IMG/VR virus record: IMGVR_UViG_3300009285_003503
Location: 1-21,538 of that record
Strand: one strand, 5' to 3'
DNA from: a virus
Length of the DNA stretch: 21,538 bases
Within the stretch, counting starts at the first letter, position 1. The number at the start of each line of letters is the position of its first letter. The notes under the pieces were generated by a model. The model ran no database searches. It had not been told where the DNA came from and saw nothing but the letters and a program-made list of their open reading frames with translations. Positions 155-11,897 of this stretch are shown here, one piece after another. Position numbers and translations under genes: made by a program.

Positions 155-1699
155 ATGCCTGGCTGCCCCAAGCGGCGGGAGCGCGAGCGGCGGGAGCGAC
201 GGATGTGGGCCTCGGCTGAGGGGACTGCCCCGGCCTCTGCGCCCGCTGAGGCTGCGCCGGCGTCGCCGTCGGTGTCGATGGGCGGTTTGGCGGGGTTCTC
301 GGCGCGGCAGTGGGATGCGGTAGACGCCATCGAGCAGGAGGGCGCGCGGTACGTGCTATATGGGGGAGCGATGGGAGGGGGAAAGTCATATTTGCTTCGC
401 TGGTATTGCGTTAGGCGACTGCTCTGGCTGGCTTCCCGCGGGCTGACGCAGGTGCCGGTGATGCTCGCGTCAGAGGACTACCCGACGCTGAGGGACCGGC
501 AGATCGCCAAGGTCGTGGCCGAGTTCCCGGCGTGGCTGGGGCGGCTGTATTCGGATCATCGCGCATTTGGGGCGGCGTTTGTGCTCGATGCGCGGTACGG
601 CGGCGGCGCGCTGTGCTTCCGCAACCTCGACGATCCGGCTAAGTACGCTAGCGCAGAATTCCCTTTGGTTTGCGTGGATGAGCTGACCAAAAACCCGCCG
701 GACGTTTTTGACGCGTTACGCAACCGCTTGCGGTGGCCGGGGCTGCCGGATCTTGACTGCGTTTTTCTGGCCGGCAGCAATCCTGGCGGGGTCGGTCATG
801 GGTGGGTCAGGGCGCTGTGGCTGGACGGTCTGTACGCGCCGGAGTGGGCCGGGCATGAGGGGGAGTTTGCGTTCGTCAAGTCTCTGGCGAGTGACAACCC
901 GCACGTTGACAAGGGATATACCGAGATGCTGGGGACGCTGCCGGAGGCACAGCGGCGGGCGTACCGGGACGGGGATTGGGATGTGTACATCGGCCAGGCG
1001 TTCCCGGAGTTTTCGACGGCGACGCATGTAGTGGACGGCGGGCCGGTTCCGGCTGGTGCGGCAGTGATTATGAGCTATGACTGGGGATTTGGCAAGCCAT
1101 ACAGCGTGATGTGGTGGTGGGTGGATGGCGACGGTCGGTTGTGGGGGTGCGGCGAGCTGTACGGTGCTGTGCCTGGTGGGCGTGATATCGGATTGCGGCA
1201 GAGCGATAGTGAGGTAGCGGCGTGTGTGCTGAGGGAGGAGCAGCGGCTGGGTGTTGCTGGGAGGGTGGGGTTAAGGCTGTGCGATCCGACTAGTTTCAAC
1301 CGCCAGGCTGACCCGCAGGGCGGGGGTCAGCGTCCGAGCACTGCGGAGACGTGGGCCAGGTCCGGGCTGATTTTGACACCTGGCGATCCGTCGCGGCGTC
1401 AGAAATTGAGGCAGATGCACGAGCGGTTGCGGCGTCCGCGTGATGGGTCTCTGCCGATGCTGGTTGTGTACCCGTGCTGCCGGGATTTCATCCGGACACT
1501 GCCGGTGATCCCTGTGGACCGGAACGACCCGGAGGAGATAGACACGAAGAGCGAGGACCACGCGGTCGACAGTGCATGTCTCGTGGTCCAGTCGCGTCCG
1601 TTGCTGGTGTCTGGTATGGTTGGCGGTGTTGGGGTGGCGGGTGTAGGTTCTGGTGTGTGTGTTGGTGGTGGCGGTCTGGCGGAGTTGGGCTCGGTGTAG
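155..1699 (+). CDS. terL: Phage terminase large subunit (ATPase plus nuclease)
   Basis: This is the DNA-packaging motor: the ATPase drives DNA into the prohead through the portal, and the C-terminal RNase H-like nuclease cuts the concatemer. Of 514 residues, a Walker A loop GGAMGGGKS is at about 70-78, Walker B LVCVDE at 171-176, and the coupling motif SNPGG at 208-212. The nuclease half shows acidic metal ligands in SYDWG (D309), LCDP (D377) and the DHAVDSA motif (468-474). The length is usual for the family. The first 45 residues are basic then Ala/Pro-rich, and the last 30 are a Gly/Val tail, both probably disordered. The ATG at 155 follows a purine-rich GGAGGGAGG stretch. A start at 203 is possible because the N-terminus carries no motif. 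The small subunit is not in the window unless it is the partial gene upstream. Confidence 0.95.
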   Translation: MPGCPKRRERERRERRMWASAEGTAPASAPAEAAPASPSVSMGGLAGFSARQWDAVDAIEQEGARYVLYGGAMGGGKSYLLRWYCVRRLLWLASRGLTQVPVMLASEDYPTLRDRQIAKVVAEFPAWLGRLYSDHRAFGAAFVLDARYGGGALCFRNLDDPAKYASAEFPLVCVDELTKNPPDVFDALRNRLRWPGLPDLDCVFLAGSNPGGVGHGWVRALWLDGLYAPEWAGHEGEFAFVKSLASDNPHVDKGYTEMLGTLPEAQRRAYRDGDWDVYIGQAFPEFSTATHVVDGGPVPAGAAVIMSYDWGFGKPYSVMWWWVDGDGRLWGCGELYGAVPGGRDIGLRQSDSEVAACVLREEQRLGVAGRVGLRLCDPTSFNRQADPQGGGQRPSTAETWARSGLILTPGDPSRRQKLRQMHERLRRPRDGSLPMLVVYPCCRDFIRTLPVIPVDRNDPEEIDTKSEDHAVDSACLVVQSRPLLVSGMVGGVGVAGVGSGVCVGGGGLAELGSV

Positions 1700-2448: not shown

Positions 2449-3297
2449 ATGAAATGTTTTCATCACAACGATGCGGATGGTCGATGTGCGGCGGCGATTG
2501 TGGCAAGATTCAAGGGGGGAATGGCCAAAGACTTCATTGAGATGGACTACAAGACGCCGGTCAATTTGACTATGGTTGGCCCGGGTGAAACGGTGTACAT
2601 CGTGGACTTCAGTTTCAAGCCCGATGATTGGTGCGCATTGAAGGAGCGCACGCAGGATGTTGTCTGGATCGACCATCATAAGACGTGCAAGAACTATCCA
2701 TATGCGTCTGAAAACATTCCCGGGGTAAGGGACTTCACCGACATGGGTCCGGCGGCATGCGCGTTGACATGGGACTACCTGGCGCACGACACCCACGTTC
2801 CTCGTGGGGTTTGTCTGATCGGGGACTATGATTCGTGGCGTATGGCAATGGCCCCGGACTCAACACTGTTCAGGGTTGGCGTGGAACTTGAGGATCAATC
2901 CGTAACGTCTCTATTCTGGCCGGCGCTGTTTGACGAGGCAAACGGGTGGGAACGGGCGTCCGATGTAATTGAGGCTGGGAGGGTTTGCATCCGCTACCGC
3001 GACCGCTACTGCTCGGACATGTGCAAGGCGTTTGGTTTTGAGACCGAGATTGCCGGTGTTGAGGCGTATGCGTGCAACTTGTTTCGGTTTGGGTCGCAAC
3101 AGTTTGGCGAGCGCATGAAGCGGTACGAGGTCTGCATCGCGTTCGCGTTTGACGGTACTACCTTCACGTGTTCGGTGTACTCGGAACGCCCGGAAGTGGA
3201 TTGTGCCGCGATTTGCCAGAGATTCGGCGGTGGCGGTCACAAGGGCGCAGCAGGATTCACATGCAGCGCGCTTCCGTTTTTGCGCAAGACGGAGTGA
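2449..3297 (+). CDS. DHH-family phosphoesterase (NrnA/NrnB-like, possible oligoribonuclease)
   Basis: DHH/DHHA1 proteins are Mn-dependent phosphodiesterases acting on nanoRNA, cyclic dinucleotides, pAp or single-stranded DNA ends. The 282-residue product has the family motifs in order: HHNDADG (5-11), VDFS (52-55), DHH in WIDHHK (74-78), GDYDSW (125-130), and the substrate-binding DHHA1 glycine loop GGGGHKGAAG at 260-269. Metal ligands therefore look intact and the length is ordinary. I chose the ATG at 2449 because GAGGTG precedes it and the protein then begins directly on the first strand of the DHH domain. A GTG at 2422 adds nine residues and has no ribosome binding site. Lying between terminase and portal, it probably serves nucleotide recycling or destruction of signalling nucleotides; the substrate cannot be read from sequence. 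Confidence 0.88.
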   Translation: MKCFHHNDADGRCAAAIVARFKGGMAKDFIEMDYKTPVNLTMVGPGETVYIVDFSFKPDDWCALKERTQDVVWIDHHKTCKNYPYASENIPGVRDFTDMGPAACALTWDYLAHDTHVPRGVCLIGDYDSWRMAMAPDSTLFRVGVELEDQSVTSLFWPALFDEANGWERASDVIEAGRVCIRYRDRYCSDMCKAFGFETEIAGVEAYACNLFRFGSQQFGERMKRYEVCIAFAFDGTTFTCSVYSERPEVDCAAICQRFGGGGHKGAAGFTCSALPFLRKTE

Positions 3298-3301
3298 TAC
3301 G

Positions 3302-3967
3302 ATGCCATTCCCTGCCCCCGAGAGGAATGCGTTCGACAGTGAGCGTCGCGTGTCTGTGGTGACGTTTCCTGCGGTTGGGCACAGTTACCCGTCGTCGGTA
3401 CTGCCGGATGGTGAATGGGTGATGCGCGGCGCGGTGAGCTGGCCGGTGTACGAGACCCAGGCGGTTGGCGGTGTAGCGCTGTTGTGCGGGATGAGCGTGG
3501 CGCTTGGGCATTGGCTGGTGTTTCGGGAGCAGGCCTTCATGGTGATTGACCCGGTGTTGGGTCAGAAGCCTGACGGTGGCGGTGCGCGTGCGATAGTTCA
3601 CGAGGGGTTGGGTGGCTGGTTGAATAAGGCCTGGTCGGCGTGGTATTGTACACAGTGGTACTGGTCGCAGGCTGAAGACGTAGCGCGTCCGTTTCGGCTG
3701 GCGGTGATTCGAAGCGAGAGTATCAAGCCTCAGCCGGTATTTGTGGAGGTTGTGGGGTTTGACCGTGCGGCGGCGTCGATGCAGATGGTTGAGTTGATCG
3801 GGAAGGGGCGGTTGCGGTTTGTGCGGGACGGTTTGGTCGCGCAGGGTCTGGCGCAGTGGCAGTCTAGCGGTGGCGGGTCAAAGGTCGGCGCGCCCGCGGC
3901 GGTGCATGCGCTGATGTGCTTGGTTGCAGGGGTTGGTCGCGCGCCGTGGCGGGACCAGAGCGAGTGA
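3302..3967 (+). CDS. Hypothetical phage protein
   Basis: This is a 221-residue protein starting four bases after the phosphoesterase stop, with GGAG eight bases before the ATG. An in-frame start at 3149 would overlap the phosphoesterase by 150 bases and encode a shadow of it, so it is rejected. The product is rich in Trp, Val and Gly. A Trp/Tyr cluster (KAWSAWYCTQWYWSQ) lies around residues 104-118, and the C-terminus has a Gly/Ser linker followed by an Ala/Val-rich segment. There is no clear membrane helix, signal peptide or catalytic motif. Its place just before the portal suggests a morphogenesis or virion accessory role, but I do not recognise the family. Confidence 0.75.
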   Translation: MPFPAPERNAFDSERRVSVVTFPAVGHSYPSSVLPDGEWVMRGAVSWPVYETQAVGGVALLCGMSVALGHWLVFREQAFMVIDPVLGQKPDGGGARAIVHEGLGGWLNKAWSAWYCTQWYWSQAEDVARPFRLAVIRSESIKPQPVFVEVVGFDRAAASMQMVELIGKGRLRFVRDGLVAQGLAQWQSSGGGSKVGAPAAVHALMCLVAGVGRAPWRDQSE

Positions 3968-4005
3968 GTTGCGACGGCAAGGACAGACATAGGAGCGGCT
4001 ACACC

Positions 4006-6048
4006 ATGACGCCTGACACAACCGATGTTCGCGTGACTGAGCTTGCGCAGTGGATCGAGACCGAGCTGTACAAGCCGTGGGTCGAGAACCGCTGGTCGCT
4101 GGAGGAGAAGTGGCAGCGGAACATTGACGACTTCCGTGGGCTGAGTGCGGAGACCTGGAAGGCCGGCGAGGGCGAGGACTGGCGCAGCAAGACGCAGTTC
4201 AACATCGCGCGGACGAAGATGATAAGCGCGTTTGCGCTGGTGTGCGACCTGGTGTTGCAGGGCGGGCGGATACCGTTTCGTCTGGACCCGGACGAGGGCG
4301 AGAAGGCGCGCGCTGAGGCGTCCGGGCCGGGCGGGGTTGAGGAACTGGACAACCGCGTTGAGGCGATGACGGCATTGATCGTGGATCAGTTGAGCCGGTG
4401 CGCGGCTGATCGTGAGATGATGAAGGCGATTCTGAGCGGGTGCGTGTACGGCGAGATGTGGCTGAAGCGGTACGCGAAGACGTTCAAGACGCGACGGTTC
4501 CAGATGTCAGAGGGCACGGTCGGGGAAGGCGCGCCGGTGGAGTCGCGGCGGTACGAGGAAGTGCAGCAGGACGAGCCGGGGCTGGCGGTGAAGTACATCA
4601 CGCCATGGAACCTGTTTTGGGACATGGAGGCCGAGGACTGGCGCGATGACGGCGAGGGCGTGATTGAGCGGCACTACCTAACCACGCACCAGTTGCGGAA
4701 GAAGATCGGGGACGCGTTCTACAGTGAGGACGCGATAGAGCGTGCGATAGCGAGTGCGGAGAAGCGCTGGGAGACCGGGGACACGTCGCATGTGGATGAC
4801 CGGTCGCGGCAGTCGCCGCGCGAGACCGAGACGCGGAAGCGCAGCAAGACGATCAGGTTTCTTGAGTGCTGGGTGAGCGCGCCACGTAACGTGGTCGAGA
4901 ACTTCGAGCGGCAGTTGATGGAGGGCGGCCTGGACCCGGTGCAGTTGCCGTTGAGCCTGGATAGCAACGAGACTCAGAGCGGGAAACAGGTGTGGGTGCA
5001 CGTGTGTTTGGCGGACAACGAGGTAGTGCGGTACACGCAGATTGAGCAGGCCGACATACCGTACTACCGTAGCGTGTGGGAGATGGAACTTGACACCGCT
5101 GAGGGGCGTGGCGTAGCGGACAACGTGCATGACCTGTCGATAGCGCTGCGTGGTGCTGCGCGTGCGTTTGAGGACAACAAGAAGCTGTCTGCGAACGTCG
5201 AGACGGCAATCATCCCGATGTACTTCGAGACGATACCGAAAACGCGCGTGCCTGGCGGCATTTACAAGCTGAGCGACGCGTGTTCGGATGTGCGTCAGGC
5301 TATGATGCCGATTGTGACGCCGGACGTAGGCCAGAGTCTGCTGCTGGCGATTGAGCTGTTCCGGCAGTTGCTGGACGAGGTAAGCCAGGTTCCAAAGATC
5401 AGCCAAGGATTGAGCCCTATCGGTCAGGCCCCGGACACGGCGTACGAGGTCAGCAAACTGGCCGAGGCCAGCGGGAAGTACATTGGCAACATCACGATGA
5501 ACGTGGATAACGGATTGATCGAGCCGCTTGTGATGGATTATCTGCGCTGGAACATGATGCAGGGCGGTGCTGAAGGCCAGGGCGCGTACACGGTGCAGGC
5601 GCTCGGGTTCAGCAGCTTCCAGGATCAGGTGTTGCAGACGCAGCGTTTGGTCCAGTTCTTCGGCTTGGCGATGTCGAACCCGGTCGCGTTGCAGGAGCTG
5701 AAGGTGCGCGATATCCTGGTTAGGATCGCGAAGTCGATGCGTCTGGACCCGGACGAGGTGCTGTTGACGGTGCAGGAGAAGCAGGCAGCGCAGCAACAGC
5801 AGCAGCAGACGCAAGACCCGATGGTGCAGTTGGCAATGGCCGAGAAACAGGCTGGGATACAGAAGCAGCAGGCTGAGGCCGAGAAGACGAAGATCGACGG
5901 CGGGGTCGCTGTGGAGCGCCTGAAGCTGGACCGCGCCAAGGCGGTACATGAGATGGTGCGGAACACGCCGCCGATAGATTACGGCGGGAACGGTGGCAGG
6001 AACGGCAGGAAACCCGGGATGGCAATGCCGGGAATGGTGCAACAGTAA
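4006..6048 (+). CDS. Phage portal protein (P22/T7-like, short-tailed phage type)
   Basis: The portal forms the dodecameric ring at one head vertex, where terminase docks and the tail attaches. The 680-residue length, the opening helix-rich segment (WIETELYKPW at 11-20) and the block from TPWNLFWDMEAEDW onward fit portals of short-tailed phages. So do the downstream segments around VADNVHDLSIALRGAARAF and the long helical part with LFRQLLDEVSQVPKISQG. The C-terminal 100 residues are a coiled-coil, glutamine-rich tail (six consecutive Gln near residue 600) resembling a barrel or disordered extension. AGGAG lies ten bases before the ATG at 4006; an in-frame start at 3916 would overlap the upstream gene. 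Its position after the terminase supports the call. The exact portal family is inferred by eye. Confidence 0.88.
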   Translation: MTPDTTDVRVTELAQWIETELYKPWVENRWSLEEKWQRNIDDFRGLSAETWKAGEGEDWRSKTQFNIARTKMISAFALVCDLVLQGGRIPFRLDPDEGEKARAEASGPGGVEELDNRVEAMTALIVDQLSRCAADREMMKAILSGCVYGEMWLKRYAKTFKTRRFQMSEGTVGEGAPVESRRYEEVQQDEPGLAVKYITPWNLFWDMEAEDWRDDGEGVIERHYLTTHQLRKKIGDAFYSEDAIERAIASAEKRWETGDTSHVDDRSRQSPRETETRKRSKTIRFLECWVSAPRNVVENFERQLMEGGLDPVQLPLSLDSNETQSGKQVWVHVCLADNEVVRYTQIEQADIPYYRSVWEMELDTAEGRGVADNVHDLSIALRGAARAFEDNKKLSANVETAIIPMYFETIPKTRVPGGIYKLSDACSDVRQAMMPIVTPDVGQSLLLAIELFRQLLDEVSQVPKISQGLSPIGQAPDTAYEVSKLAEASGKYIGNITMNVDNGLIEPLVMDYLRWNMMQGGAEGQGAYTVQALGFSSFQDQVLQTQRLVQFFGLAMSNPVALQELKVRDILVRIAKSMRLDPDEVLLTVQEKQAAQQQQQQTQDPMVQLAMAEKQAGIQKQQAEAEKTKIDGGVAVERLKLDRAKAVHEMVRNTPPIDYGGNGGRNGRKPGMAMPGMVQQ

Positions 6049-6060
6049 GGAGTGACGCCG

Positions 6061-6369
6061 ATGGCCAAAAAACGCAGCCGGAAGAAGCTTCTGACCGATG
6101 TTGTGCTCGACGCCATCGAGCGCGTGCTTGAACATGACGCGGTGAGAGTCGAGAAGTTGACAGGACGCCAGCTTGCGGCCGCCGTGCGTCAGGCGATTGA
6201 GTGCGGGGACTTCATGCGGTTCGTGGACACCAGGGCCGGCGGCGGGACACGGATTGACTACGTGCCGCGGCGCGAGCATGACAGCATGTTGAAGTTCATC
6301 AAAGACCTGAAGGTTCAGGTGTTGACGCTTCAGGCGCTTGTGGACGAGGGCGGCGAGGCCCTGACATGA
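6061..6369 (+). CDS. Small basic phage protein of unknown function
   Basis: This is a 102-residue ORF following the portal by 12 bases. The ATG at 6061 is preceded by AAGGAG with good spacing; a GTG at 6052 is in frame but sits on the ribosome binding site. The N-terminus is strongly basic (AKKRSRKKLL), the middle looks helical, and the C-terminal 25 residues look like a short coiled coil (MLKFIKDLKVQVLTLQAL). It might bind DNA or portal, but no family is recognised. Its last bases overlap the next ATG (ATGA), starting a chain of five translationally coupled small genes. Confidence 0.7.
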   Translation: MAKKRSRKKLLTDVVLDAIERVLEHDAVRVEKLTGRQLAAAVRQAIECGDFMRFVDTRAGGGTRIDYVPRREHDSMLKFIKDLKVQVLTLQALVDEGGEALT

Positions 6370-6593
6370 CTACAGGCGAGGCTGAATATCTCCTGGCCAA
6401 GTTTGCGGCCGAACTCGGTGAGCACTTCGAGGCCGTGCAGATACTGGCAACATGGCGTGATGGAGACCTGACGCACACACGTCACTCTGGTAATGGCAAC
6501 TGGAATGCCAGGATGGGAATGTGCCACGAGTTCATTGTTGACGACGAAGCGAAGACTACGGCATACAGAGTGAAGCAGGAAACCGGGGAATGA
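6366..6593 (+). CDS. Small phage protein of unknown function
   Basis: This is a 75-residue ORF whose ATG lies inside the previous stop (ATGA) and whose own stop overlaps the next start the same way. The N-terminal 25 residues are a probable amphipathic helix (EAEYLLAKFAAELGEHF). The rest resembles a small beta domain with WRDGDL and HSGNGNWNARMGM, and it holds several His and Trp residues. It encodes no recognisable motif. Coupled translation with the HExxH protein downstream suggests they act together or need matched amounts. Confidence 0.65.
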   Translation: MTTGEAEYLLAKFAAELGEHFEAVQILATWRDGDLTHTRHSGNGNWNARMGMCHEFIVDDEAKTTAYRVKQETGE

Positions 6594-6976
6594 AAACGCC
6601 GTTGACGCCAATCGAACGGCAGACAATGGACCGCCTGTTCTTTGACGTGCGTATGCGGGTGTCGGGGCCGGTGTCGTCGCTGGCCGGGCTGGACCTGCTG
6701 TGGGATGACCGGTACAACACGGAGAACGGGATACTGGGCTCGTTTTGGTGGGGCCGTCCGAACGAAATCTGCCTGAGCCCGGTAGGGAAGACAACCCCGG
6801 AACTGCTGCTGGGCGTACTGTTCCATGAACTGCACCACCGCTGGCAGTGGCAGACGTATGGTGTCGGGTACATACTGGCGCTGGCCCCTGGCGTTCGGCA
6901 ATGGTTGCTTGAGCCGTCGGCGTACATGATTGAAGCAGAGGTTGACGCGTTGCTGGAAAGGGACGGTGCGCGATGA
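6590..6976 (+). CDS. Small HExxH-motif protein, putative zinc metallopeptidase
   Basis: This 128-residue protein carries HELHH at 79-83, matching the HExxH zinc-binding signature, in a predicted hydrophobic helix (LLLGVLFHELHHRWQWQ). About 32 residues later EAEVDALL (115-122) offers acidic residues in the place where a gluzincin would supply its third ligand. Residues 50-66 (GSFWWGRPNEICLSPVG) form a Trp-rich strand segment before it. This layout resembles compact phage and plasmid peptidase-like domains, but the protein is short and HExxH alone occurs by chance. No secretion signal is visible, so it would act in the cell or virion. It is ATGA-coupled at both ends. Alternative: an inactive structural fold. 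Substrate unknown. Confidence 0.7.
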   Translation: MKTPLTPIERQTMDRLFFDVRMRVSGPVSSLAGLDLLWDDRYNTENGILGSFWWGRPNEICLSPVGKTTPELLLGVLFHELHHRWQWQTYGVGYILALAPGVRQWLLEPSAYMIEAEVDALLERDGAR

Positions 6977-7188
6977 CGAAGCGTGCGAAGGTGACGCCGT
7001 TGCGGATGCTGCCGGCGCTGTGGCTGTCTTCGGCGCGTGAACTGGAGAGGACGCTTGGCGTCGTCCGTGCGGAAAGCGTCAACCTGCGCGTTTGTAGGCG
7101 TCAACTGCTGCGTGCCTTGCGTGACTTGCCGCTGACGCGTAGCACGGCTGTTGAACGGCTGGTGAAGGCGCGGGAGGCTGGACGATGA
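6973..7188 (+). CDS. Small basic phage protein of unknown function
   Basis: This is a 71-residue, strongly basic ORF that is ATGA-coupled to the HExxH gene before it and to the membrane peptide after it. It is almost entirely helix-forming, with Arg and Leu at regular spacing (RQLLRALRDLPLTRSTAVERLVKA is the general pattern in its second half) and no Asp-rich or Gly-rich loops. Such proteins may bind nucleic acid or a partner helix. No family is recognised, and the main support is its place in the overlapping chain of genes. Confidence 0.6.
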   Translation: MTKRAKVTPLRMLPALWLSSARELERTLGVVRAESVNLRVCRRQLLRALRDLPLTRSTAVERLVKAREAGR

Positions 7189-7283
7189 TACCGTTGCTGC
7201 TCGGGGCTGTGGTGGTGCTGGTGTTTGTTGCGGGCGTCGCGCTGGCGTGGTCGCGGGCGTACGGCGAACTGGATACGAAGTAG
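7185..7283 (+). CDS. 32-residue single-pass membrane peptide
   Basis: This tiny ORF is ATGA-coupled to its upstream neighbour and reads MIPLLLGAVVVLVFVAGVAL then AWSRAYGELDTK before TAG. Residues 2-21 form one clean hydrophobic helix, with a positively charged flank afterwards, which predicts a single-pass inner-membrane peptide. Phage peptides of this size include holin-like and spanin-like factors, but no lysis enzyme sits beside it, so that role is only a guess. It closes the coupled run that begins after the portal. Confidence 0.6.
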   Translation: MIPLLLGAVVVLVFVAGVALAWSRAYGELDTK

Positions 7284-7289
7284 CGCGGC

Positions 7290-7318
7290 TTGACAACTCC
7301 CCGGAATAGGTGTAGGTT
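7290..7318 (+). promoter_or_regulatory. Sigma-70-like promoter candidate
   Basis: A perfect -35 box TTGACA (7290-7295) is followed by a 17-base spacer and a weaker -10 box TAGGTT (7313-7318) preceded by TG. It lies directly after the stop of the membrane-peptide gene. Transcription would begin near 7325 and run into a structured leader. The second island promoter at 8671 has the same TTGACAA -35 region and the same 17-base spacing. The -10 match is only fair. Confidence 0.5.
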
Positions 7319-7324
7319 CTGTGG

Positions 7325-7432
7325 TGTTCTGAAACCTTTAGCTCACAAAGGTATGAACATCACCACCAGCCAGAATCAACCTCGACAGTGCCAGCGGGTC
7401 TTGCCCGTTGGGTGAGCCACTGTCGGGGTTTT
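7325..7432 (+). ncRNA. Candidate structured leader or small RNA before the nuclease gene
   Basis: From the predicted start near 7325 to the T-run at 7432 there is no good ORF, but there are two hairpins. The first is built from GTGGTG (7321-7326) pairing with CACCAC (7361-7366), TTC with GAA, and a perfect inner ACCTTT (7334-7339)/AAAGGT (7347-7352) stem with a 7-base loop. The second is the terminator-like hairpin at 7380-7432. The product would be an RNA of roughly 110 nt, or the attenuated leader of the nuclease gene. Both readings are inferred from base pairing; no RNA family is recognised. Confidence 0.4.
7380..7432 (+). terminator. Terminator-like or attenuator hairpin
   Basis: CCTCGACAGTG (7380-7390) pairs with CACTGTCGGGG (7418-7428) as 11 base pairs with one G-T wobble, and TTTT follows at 7429-7432. 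Inside the large loop GCGGG and CCCGT make a second short stem. This has the form of a Rho-independent terminator, although the loop is long. It would end either the upstream operon or the short transcript from 7290. Because the nuclease ATG at 7445 lies just downstream, it may also act as an attenuator. Confidence 0.55.
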
Positions 7433-7444
7433 CCATTCTACACC

Positions 7445-8143
7445 ATGGACACAGACTCCGCCCCCCTTGAGCCGATTTACATGAAGCCGCTACGGTGGCC
7501 GACAACCTCCCAAGAATCGGCATACCTGAATATGCGACAGAACCAGAACCGGGTCATGTCCCGCACGAATCCAAATGAGAATTGGCTCGCAGACAAACTC
7601 AAAGAAGCCGGACTGAGGTTCAAGCGTCAGCGGCGATGGGGATACCGCATCTTCGATTTCTGGTCTGCGCACCTAGGAATAGCCGTTGAAAGCGACGGTC
7701 CTGAACACGACAAGGATTACGATGGATACCGGGATGAGTACAACTACCGTCGCAGCGGCATCATTGTGTTGCGGGTTCGGAACCGGAACGAAGAAGACAC
7801 CGCCAAGGTAATCGAGAAAATCAAGAAGGCTCGCACGTGGAAGCAACGCAGAGAAGCAATGGGGCTACATGCTACGTCTCAACAAGAACGACGAAAATGG
7901 GTTACCGATTCTGACCATCCAGCCCCACTAGACCGATTCCCCCATATCGAACGTCCGTATTGTGCTCTATGCCGAGCGCGCCGACGCCTTGAGCCTGGAA
8001 CGACTTTATGCCAACGCTGCGGACGTATCGTGAGGGAAGCAGCCAAGGTTAGGTTTACCATGGACCCGGCAAACCCTAACTATACCCTCAACAGGTTCAA
8101 GAAGGGCGCAAAACGCGCACGAAAGGCAGCGCGTAGGCATTAG
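7445..8143 (+). CDS. DUF559/Vsr-like PD-(D/E)XK endonuclease with C-terminal zinc ribbon
   Basis: The 232-residue product has a very-short-patch-repair-like nuclease core at about 40-130. It contains NENWLADKLKEAGLRF, the strand GYRIFDFW with D71, the catalytic-type VESDGPEH (E82, D84, H88), and a closing SGIIVLRVRNRN. Residues 173-192 are a zinc ribbon with C173, C176, C189 and C192, and the tail is highly basic, suiting DNA binding. Such proteins act as DNA nicking or cutting enzymes, including free-standing homing endonucleases in phages. Unlike nearly every neighbour, no start has a convincing ribosome binding site: 7388 (GTG inside a hairpin), 7445, 7481, 7532 and 7556 are all possible. 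I chose 7445 as the first ATG after the hairpin. Promoter before and terminator after the block suggest an acquired cassette. Confidence 0.8.
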   Translation: MDTDSAPLEPIYMKPLRWPTTSQESAYLNMRQNQNRVMSRTNPNENWLADKLKEAGLRFKRQRRWGYRIFDFWSAHLGIAVESDGPEHDKDYDGYRDEYNYRRSGIIVLRVRNRNEEDTAKVIEKIKKARTWKQRREAMGLHATSQQERRKWVTDSDHPAPLDRFPHIERPYCALCRARRRLEPGTTLCQRCGRIVREAAKVRFTMDPANPNYTLNRFKKGAKRARKAARRH

Positions 8144-8189
8144 ACCCCATCGCCCCCCGGCCCACCCGAAGAACAGGAGACAGACTTCC

Positions 8190-8234
8190 ATGACGGACAT
8201 CCAGACTGCCGACGTTCGGGAGGATAAACGATGA
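8190..8234 (+). CDS. 14-codon ORF coupled to a membrane peptide
   Basis: An AGGAG nine bases upstream and an ATGA overlap with the next ORF support translation of this tiny frame (MTDIQTADVREDKR). It lies 46 bases after the nuclease stop. Its leader GAACAGGAG is repeated in front of the ORF at 8336. It may be a coupling leader rather than a functional peptide; the sequence offers nothing further. Confidence 0.35.
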   Translation: MTDIQTADVREDKR

Positions 8235-8317
8235 TGACTCTAGTGTGTATGCTTTTGGTGGCGGTGGGTATGGCGGTCGCCTTTTTTGCCTTTCTGCGGA
8301 GTATCCCTCGGTCGTAA
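8231..8317 (+). CDS. 28-residue single-pass membrane peptide
   Basis: The start ATGATG overlaps the previous stop and is preceded by GGGAGG at good distance. The product MMTLVCMLLVAVGMAVAFFA followed by FLRSIPRS is a single hydrophobic helix with a short basic end, predicting an inner-membrane peptide. It resembles the peptide at 7185 in design but not in sequence. Whether it works with the nuclease block or with lysis or entry cannot be told. Confidence 0.55.
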   Translation: MMTLVCMLLVAVGMAVAFFAFLRSIPRS

Positions 8318-8335
8318 GAACAGGAGCCCGATCCC

Positions 8336-8578
8336 ATGACCGATAACCAGCTCGACGGCGACCCCTGCGAGGCTGAGGCCCGATCCGACATGCCGGCGCC
8401 ATTGCCGCCACCGGACGATAACCGTGGCGTGGCGTACTACCAGCTTGTGGCTACGTCGTTGGTGCGGGCGTTGCGGCCTGACCTGGCGGGGATGCGTCTT
8501 CAGTGGGAAGACCTGCGCCATGTTGACCCGAACGGGATAGTCCGCGCGTTCATCCGCCAGCAGACGAAGAACCGGTAG
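8336..8578 (+). CDS. Small phage protein of unknown function
   Basis: This is an 80-residue ORF with AGGAG well placed before the ATG. The first 30 residues are acidic and Pro-rich (probably disordered), and the remainder is helical (GVAYYQLVATSLVRALRPDL). It is the last gene before the strong terminator at 8609. No family is recognised. Codon use with G or C at third positions matches the phage core rather than the nuclease gene. Confidence 0.65.
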   Translation: MTDNQLDGDPCEAEARSDMPAPLPPPDDNRGVAYYQLVATSLVRALRPDLAGMRLQWEDLRHVDPNGIVRAFIRQQTKNR

Positions 8579-8608
8579 AGTCCGCAATACTTTGCGAAGC
8601 ACACATGA

Positions 8609-8634
8609 AGCCCCTGACTATCCAGGGGCTTTTT
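8609..8634 (+). terminator. Rho-independent terminator
   Basis: AGCCCCTG (8609-8616) and CAGGGGCT (8623-8630) form a perfect 8-bp GC-rich stem with a 6-base loop ACTATC, followed immediately by TTTT. It lies 30 bases after the stop of the 8336 gene and would end transcription of the nuclease block. Confidence 0.88.
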
Positions 8635-8670
8635 CGTGTCTGCCTTCTGGCCACATCTCCCCAACCTGAC

Positions 8671-8699
8671 TTGACAATACTCGCCAACCGTATTACTGT
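8671..8699 (+). promoter_or_regulatory. Sigma-70-like promoter candidate
   Basis: A perfect -35 TTGACA (8671-8676), a 17-base spacer and a -10-like TACTGT (8694-8699) lie 37 bases after the terminator at 8609-8634. The expected start is near 8706. It would drive the non-coding stretch up to 8879 and, by read-through, the head operon beginning at 8929. It shares TTGACAA and spacing with the 7290 candidate. Confidence 0.55.
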
Positions 8700-8705
8700 C
8701 TCTGT

Positions 8706-8879
8706 CGTAGGCGCAGCGGGTACACTGGTTGTACAGGCTGTGTCCACATAGCACGGGAGAACAAGGACCGGGCAACAAGACGGGCTAGCTACCCGGTGTG
8801 TTGCTGAGCAAAGTCAACCGTCCTGCAACCTAAGCGCGACTGATGGCGGCACCGCCCCGTCCATTGGTCGCGCTTTTTG
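8706..8879 (+). ncRNA. Candidate phage small RNA with four hairpins
   Basis: Between the 8671 promoter candidate and the terminator at 8833-8879 there is no supported ORF, yet the sequence is full of stems. GTACA/TGTAC lies at 8720-8734 (5 bp, 5-base loop). GCTGTG/CATAGC lies at 8737-8752 (6 bp with one G-U, loop TCCA). A two-part stem GCAACA...TGTTGC enclosing CGGG...CCCG lies at 8772-8804. The terminator stem closes it. This gives a transcript of about 170 nt. It does not fold as a tRNA and I recognise no RNA family. It could be a regulatory RNA, a structural or packaging RNA, or a leader controlling the head genes. Confidence 0.45.
8833..8879 (+). terminator. Strong Rho-independent terminator
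   Basis: AGCGCGAC (8833-8840) pairs perfectly with GTCGCGCT (8867-8874), and the stem extends inward through TGATGG/CCATTG with two wobbles to about 14 bp. A TTTTT tract follows at 8874-8878. It sits 50 bases before the next gene's ATG, so it closes the short transcript from 8671 rather than a protein-coding operon. Confidence 0.85.
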
Positions 8880-8928
8880 TTTGCCCGGTTCTCTCCCCTG
8901 CCGTTCAGCACCAAGCACACAGGAACGA

Positions 8929-9261
8929 ATGAACATCGACGTTAAGCACTACGCCAAGAGCAACAGCGACCGCATTCTGTCGCTGGCGAAGGCGCGTGAG
9001 ACCGGGACGGGGCGCGCGCTGCTTGAGGCGGCTGACCTGAAGATTTCAGAGGAACAGAACTCCGTGGTACGGCGTCCGCGTCGGGACGAAGCGGATATCA
9101 CAAACGACCTGTACTTCCGCCTCGGCTTCATCGCCGGTATCACCTGGGTTCTGGACCTGGAAACGTCCGCGCGGCGGCTGATGCAAGGAATCGCCGGCGA
9201 GGACGCTTCCGAAGACGAAGACTACAACCCGACGCGGGAGAAGCAAGGTCTACCGGCGTGA
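8929..9261 (+). CDS. Small acidic phage protein of unknown function
   Basis: This is a 110-residue ORF, first gene after the terminator. The ATG at 8929 has AGGAA upstream; an in-frame extension to 8881 would start inside the terminator T-run and is rejected. The N-terminal half is helical with mixed charge, the segment DLYFRLGFIAGITWVLDLE (about 63-81) is hydrophobic-aromatic, and the last 25 residues are very acidic (GEDASEDEDY). It may be a head-assembly accessory; no family is recognised. Confidence 0.7.
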   Translation: MNIDVKHYAKSNSDRILSLAKARETGTGRALLEAADLKISEEQNSVVRRPRRDEADITNDLYFRLGFIAGITWVLDLETSARRLMQGIAGEDASEDEDYNPTREKQGLPA

Positions 9262-11608: not shown

Positions 11609-11780
11609 TATGACGTTCCTGCCACAGTATGGCGGCGCGACGTTCACCGTTGACACGAACGCGGAAACGCGTTGCCCGGTCTGCGGTATGAAGTTTTTCA
11701 CCGGACATCTTGCGCCTGGCAGCGTGATTGAGATCCGTTGTCGCAAGTGCAAGACGTTCACGAAGTACAAGGCGGTGTAG
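11571..11780 (+). CDS. Com-like zinc-ribbon protein
   Basis: This is a 69-residue protein with two CxxC pairs, CPVCGMKFF at 35-43 and IRCRKCKTFTKYK at 55-67. The pattern RCxxCxKxF-(G-rich turn)-IEIRCxxCKTxT resembles Com, the small RNA-binding zinc finger of Mu-like phages that activates mom translation. I chose ATG 11571 because AGAGGA precedes it inside the scaffold gene; starts at 11595 or 11610 also keep the whole zinc ribbon. No mom-like gene is in the window, so an RNA-binding regulatory role for the neighbouring capsid genes or a plain zinc-binding role are both open. Confidence 0.7.
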   Translation: MGSTSPQVMTAGDMTFLPQYGGATFTVDTNAETRCPVCGMKFFTGHLAPGSVIEIRCRKCKTFTKYKAV

Positions 11781-11897
11781 TACCACCGACAAACCAGACC
11801 ACTCGCCTGAAGACCACCGAGTCTCCGTGCGTTGCGACGCTGGAAACAGCAACCCGACAGCAGACGCTGCCGGGGCAAACCACAAGGAGACTCGAAC

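Follow-up and report, generated by a model that had tools for sequence, protein, structure and literature searches.

Does the gap between a promoter-like site and a strong terminator, just ahead of the head genes of an uncultured phage, encode a small RNA, or does it serve the genes that follow? The window analysed here is the whole of an IMG/VR contig of 21.5 kb (21,538 nucleotides; 60% G+C), in which all major genes lie on the + strand (Table 1). The head operon begins with p8929 and continues with a decoration/fibre-like gene (9305), a scaffold-like gene, a Com-like zinc-ribbon gene and the capsid gene. The promoter-terminator unit lies within a block of accessory genes that separates portal from p8929. 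Our best reading, held with middling confidence, is a promoter-leader-terminator unit that would throttle the head operon.

The block between the portal gene and the head operon also encodes, at 6590-6976, a small protein with an HELHH motif. It is weakly SprT-like (PF10263, E 0.01) and is a candidate accessory metallopeptidase. No tRNA or tmRNA was found.

Table 1. Positions of genes, regulatory sites and RNA elements in the window.
Feature	Position	Strand	Remarks
Terminase large subunit	155-1696	+	
DHH phosphoesterase	2422	+	
Portal	4003-6045	+	
Small accessory genes	6052-7283	+	
Second promoter-terminator unit	7290-7433	+	TTGACA-17-TAGGTT (7290-7318), hairpin 7378-7430, T4
DUF559 endonuclease-like gene	to 8143	+	
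p8336		+	gene between DUF559 gene and p8929
Intrinsic terminator	8608-8632	+	stem AGCCCCTG/CAGGGGCT and T-tract; -17.6 kcal/mol
Sigma-70-like promoter	8671-8699	+	TTGACA-17-TACTGT; 9/12 match; -35 perfect, -10 weak
Predicted short terminated non-coding transcript	8706-8879	+	~172 nt; predicted start and end
5' hairpin	8710-8744	+	8 bp, internal loop, 5 bp; z -2.8 for 8706-8750
Long-range helix, 5' side	8755-8777	+	partner 8881-8897; only in read-through RNA
Second hairpin	8771-8805	+	7 bp outer stem; region not above chance
Strong intrinsic terminator	8832-8878	+	hairpin and T5; -28.3 kcal/mol
Long-range helix, 3' side	8881-8897	+	downstream of terminator; partner 8755-8777
p8929	8929-9261	+	first gene of the conserved head operon
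Com-like Cys4 zinc-ribbon gene	11619-11780	+	adjoins capsid leader
Capsid gene leader	11781-11897	+	upstream of capsid start
Com-box hairpin	11811-11824	+	AGAC-CACCGA-GTCT; form GA-NNN-CC-(N)n-GAG-N'N'N'
N4-gp56-type major capsid gene	from 11898	+	

Promoter-like site, terminators and RNA fold

The TTGACA box described in the sequence-only reading is present at 8671-8676 and is followed, after a spacer of 17 bases, by TACTGT at 8694-8699. Calling this -10 "fair" was generous. It agrees with TATAAT at three of six positions, and for this reason the site is missing from a stricter promoter scan. The window has two matches to the pattern TTGACA-N16..18-TANNNT, where 0.18 would be expected. The window contains 14 TTGACA boxes, and its non-coding DNA (7.7% of the total) holds only those at 7290 and 8671. 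Both pattern matches, at these same two positions, lie on the + strand. Downstream of each, a very strong terminator comes within ~110-170 nt, with a gene behind it. Such -35/-10 rules presuppose a host sigma-70.

The same recurrence bears on the claim that a promoter paired with a strong terminator, and nothing coded between them, is unusual in so compact a region. The pair is not unique, as a second one occupies 7290-7430. That unit is non-coding and lies directly upstream of the DUF559 gene. Its hairpin reaches -34.7 kcal/mol (z -4.2 for 7325-7434), and its promoter activity is uncertain because the -10 is poor. Comparison of the units at 7290 and 8671 revealed no meaningful shared repeat. 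Repetition of the pattern at 7290 argues against one special small-RNA gene.

Both terminators proposed around the gap are real. The upstream one, which had been placed at 8609, closes the upstream accessory genes. The downstream one consists of a hairpin at 8832-8875 and a T5 tract at 8874-8878 (z -5.4 for 8829-8880). The absence of a coding frame also held: there is no plausible ORF between promoter and terminator, and no relic of coding was detected in 8579-8928 against the proteins of ~170 related loci (best E 0.08). Given this anatomy, it is fair to predict a short non-coding RNA of ~172 nt.

The series of three successive stems suggested for this transcript was not confirmed. Only the hairpin at 8710-8744, moderately, and the terminator, by a wide margin, rise above chance. 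The stem at 8720-8734 does pair, as the tip of that one long hairpin. The stem at 8737-8752 has a pairing probability of ~0.005; it competes with the same hairpin, which uses its bases. Between 8750 and 8828 the RNA folds no better than chance (z -0.6).

No homologue of the RNA was found by blastn in phage and plasmid collections, by an exact 22-mer scan of IMG/VR, by word-7 blastn and nhmmer in 133 related loci, or by blastn in 39 further related loci. The covariance models of Rfam 15, including those of phage sRNAs and packaging RNA, gave no match, and matches at low threshold were chance only.

These results bear on the idea of a dedicated gene for a trans-acting small RNA, a non-coding accessory "moron" whose 172-nt product would target RNA or protein of the host or of the phage. 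Such a gene would account for a promoter and a terminator of its own, the upstream terminator, the lack of an ORF, the setting in an accessory block and the stable 5' hairpin. However, the RNA has neither an Rfam match nor a homologue in any collection searched, its middle part is not more structured than chance, and the unit lies right against the head operon, at a place where promoters or terminators are retained in relatives. We consider a dedicated gene unlikely. What stands of the proposed small regulatory RNA is the predicted short transcript itself, and as a leader or attenuator of the head operon that follows, the unit would fit its position at least equally well. A packaging RNA like the pRNA of phi29, also proposed, found no support. 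The element does lie in the head gene region, but the terminase is of the ordinary large-subunit type, Rfam pRNA models do not match, nothing similar occurs in ~170 related loci and the gap itself is absent from the closest relatives. That this is a packaging RNA is extremely improbable.

The fold does not stop at the terminator. The whole leader, 8706-8928, is more stable than any of 500 shuffles (z -4.1), so the structured unit extends beyond the terminator, as expected of a 5' leader. Once transcription passes 8879, the two sides of the long-range helix are predicted to pair and to enclose the terminator. With the true tail added the energy is -99.4 kcal/mol, compared with -90.2 ± 2.9 for shuffled tails (4/500 as low). 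The energy of the duplex alone is less striking (93/2000 shuffles as stable), and the helix is thus suggestive only. We regard as distinctly unlikely the more far-reaching proposal, in which an RNA structured across its own terminator (8706-8899) would control head-operon read-through in cis as a new type of leader switch, or the short form would be a new trans-acting phage sRNA with no relative in the databases.

An insertion bounded by 8755-8777 and 8881-8897 as terminal inverted repeats was considered and not adopted, as inspection revealed no target-site duplication. A 13-nt near-repeat at 8597 and 8913 is, roughly estimated, no more than chance would give.

The junction between portal and p8929 in relatives

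IMG/VR and genomes were scanned with capsid and terminase to gather relatives. Single-sequence scans with p8929, portal and the DUF559 gene product yielded none, and the matches of the terminase scan were phages with unrelated head modules. The nearest relatives, L029 and L030, have a capsid identity of ~55%. Of 134 loci, 55 have a homologue recognised by an HMM of p8929; apart from a few, these homologues lie between the portal and capsid genes.

Many relatives have p8929 overlapping the portal stop or directly behind it. In L029 and L030 it abuts or overlaps that stop, with no leader and no gap. The block 6052-8880 is therefore an insertion relative to both, and the unit is not generally needed.

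Other relatives keep signals at this junction. Promoters directly upstream of the p8929 homologue beat shuffles in L005, L009, L019, L048, L053, L070 and L086; at p ≤ 0.05, junction promoters occur in 7 of 41 distinct loci against 2 expected. The one in L019, TTGACA-17-TACAAT, was equalled by none of 100 shuffles. A strong terminator lies just before the p8929 homologue in L067, L080 and L090/L091. In L067 and L090 the promoter matches are weak and do no better than shuffles. In L080 the junction reads promoter, ~70 nt, terminator, then p8929.

Some further observations were made in these contigs. Near-perfect TTGACA-17-TACAAT sites stand directly before the p8929 homologue, with another ahead of portal in L006, L009, L019 and L024 (L005:2191, L006:4624 and 7349, L009:1366 and 4075, L019:4645 and 7367, L024:1820 and 4529). 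L080 has two promoter-terminator units (5210-5304 and 7974-8075), each directly before a gene, one of which is the p8929 homologue. The two L080 terminators are alike (ATCGGTACA..TGT.TCGGT, T8, GAGAAAA); the units of the window have no sequence in common with those of L080. In L090, a phage contig of the same group, a tmRNA (3200-3594, Rfam 120 bits) and a tRNA lie side by side (3110-3594 together), just upstream of the portal gene.

The junction could also hold no functional unit at all. The hairpin at 8832-8878 would then be a second terminator after the one at 8608, the promoter-like site would be inactive, and the head operon would be transcribed from a phage-specific promoter in 8880-8928 or by read-through from far upstream. 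The -10 with three of six matches, the absence of the site from the standard scan, the relatives that have terminators alone at the junction and the many in which portal and p8929 run as one unit all agree with this. Against it, both promoter-like sites fall in the small non-coding part of the window, are oriented with the genes and have a terminator close behind, and no candidate promoter is recognisable in 8880-8928. We judge an empty junction possible, on the doubtful side.

The lack of a recognisable sigma-70-like promoter between the terminator and p8929 makes read-through from 8671 or upstream the simplest supply for the head genes. In the leader model that we prefer, host RNA polymerase would start near 8706 and transcribe a leader of ~172 nt. 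Most transcripts would end at 8832-8878, giving the short RNA as a by-product. A fraction would escape the terminator, through leakage or regulated antitermination, and extend into the genes for p8929, the scaffold and the capsid. Together with the terminator at 8608-8632, the unit would insulate the head operon from the accessory genes between portal and p8929. The signals that recur at this junction in relatives, the two units of L080 included, speak for this model. The evidence against it is the weak -10 (3/6), promoters at shuffle level in L067 and L090, the leaderless junctions of L029 and L030, the failure to find a Q-type antiterminator in the window contig and 15 relatives (mostly fragments), and the reliance of the promoter call on a host sigma-70. 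If the model is right, uncultured phages with N4-gp56-type capsids would throttle their head operon through promoter-terminator leaders at a fixed place, between portal and p8929.

A candidate Com-type switch before the capsid gene

A larger gain than the promoter-terminator unit lies at the other end of the head operon. The leader of the capsid gene contains a hairpin, which is also present in L003, L006, L009, L042, L056, L063, L071, L076, L077, L084 and others. It lies at a median of 29 nt downstream of the zinc-ribbon gene and ~51 nt before the capsid start. The hairpin is not in Rfam 15.

Its invariant CC and GAG are those of the published recognition motif of Com, 5'-CC(N)2-3GAG-3' in a hairpin loop closed by C-G, for which the natural Mu target is GAAUGCCUGCGAGCAUC (PMC6483171). 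Among 29 distinct sequences, 97.4% of cells pair, 30 cells are changed on both sides, and the covariation score reaches 0.711, where shuffles give 0.186 and sliding the partner gives ≤0.062, figures that are inflated because the instances were chosen partly by pairing. When anchors only were used, with no pairing, the 15 best zinc-ribbon-positive leaders averaged 3.9 of 4 pairs; at the lowest threshold all 37 leaders averaged 2.7 pairs, compared with 2.0 for swapped partners. A high motif score was found in 38 of 55 loci with a zinc-ribbon gene versus 1 of 21 without one.

The zinc-ribbon proteins themselves match Com families: PHROG 6417 "translational regulator" in 15 of 20, PHROG 13819 gpCom in 11 of 20 and PF10122 in 10 of 20. 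The protein of the window gives a weak match only (PHROG 6417, E 0.008) and none to PF10122. The Com-box hairpin and a helix that masks the Shine-Dalgarno of the capsid gene are predicted to exclude each other. The helix of the window is predicted to join CGAGTCTCC (11819-11827) to GGAGACTCG (11885-11893) at a probability of ~1, and pairing that covers the Shine-Dalgarno reaches p ≤ 0.05 in 20 of 34 distinct leaders.

On these sequence comparisons, a Com-type translational switch likely controls capsid synthesis in this phage group. The logic of Com and a translation-inhibition structure would be that of Mu mom, here applied to the major capsid gene. If so, the Com family would have, besides its part in DNA modification in Mu, a second role in controlling the major capsid protein. 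A search of the literature returned no report of a Com-type switch on a major capsid gene, which is not proof of novelty.

Comparison with known leaders and cassettes

PeSL cassettes, as Comeau et al. reportedly described them in 2014, combine a sigma-70-like promoter with a stem-loop terminator, are non-coding and stand beside accessory genes in early regions of T4-type phages. The window units resemble them in the combination of sites, in being non-coding, in standing beside accessory genes and in the presence of more than one per phage (7290 and 8671 in the window, two in L080). Unlike PeSL, they belong to a podovirus-like head cluster, and no shared cassette sequence that could mediate recombination links the units at 7290 and 8671.

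In Gifsy-1, a phage promoter gives, from one start, the short terminated RNA IsrK and a read-through mRNA (PMC4825925). The output predicted for the window unit is the same in kind, with no relation in sequence. The IsrK short RNA acts in trans, whereas a trans role of the short RNA of the window is only hypothetical. Because IsrK shows that such an RNA can gain a trans role, a small-RNA function of the unit retains some probability.

A further parallel is with late control in lambda, where the pR' leader contains a terminator and read-through with Q gives the downstream mRNA (PMC6606751). The window differs in that its unit lies between portal and head operon and not upstream of lysis genes, and in that 8700-8715 (CTCTGTCGTAGGCGC) shows no clear -10-like pause element by inspection. 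No Q antiterminator of PF06530 or PF03589 was found in 16 records (the window contig, itself a 21.5-kb fragment, and 15 relatives), most of which are fragments; other Q types exist. Control by the leader would be comparable to that of lambda, apparently without a Q family protein, and would be a modest finding on its own. The arrangement is that of lambda pR'-tR' (6S RNA, Q-dependent) and of 21 pR'-tR': a constitutive sigma-70 promoter, in the window a sigma-70-like site of predicted strength, then a short leader, an intrinsic terminator and the late structural genes.
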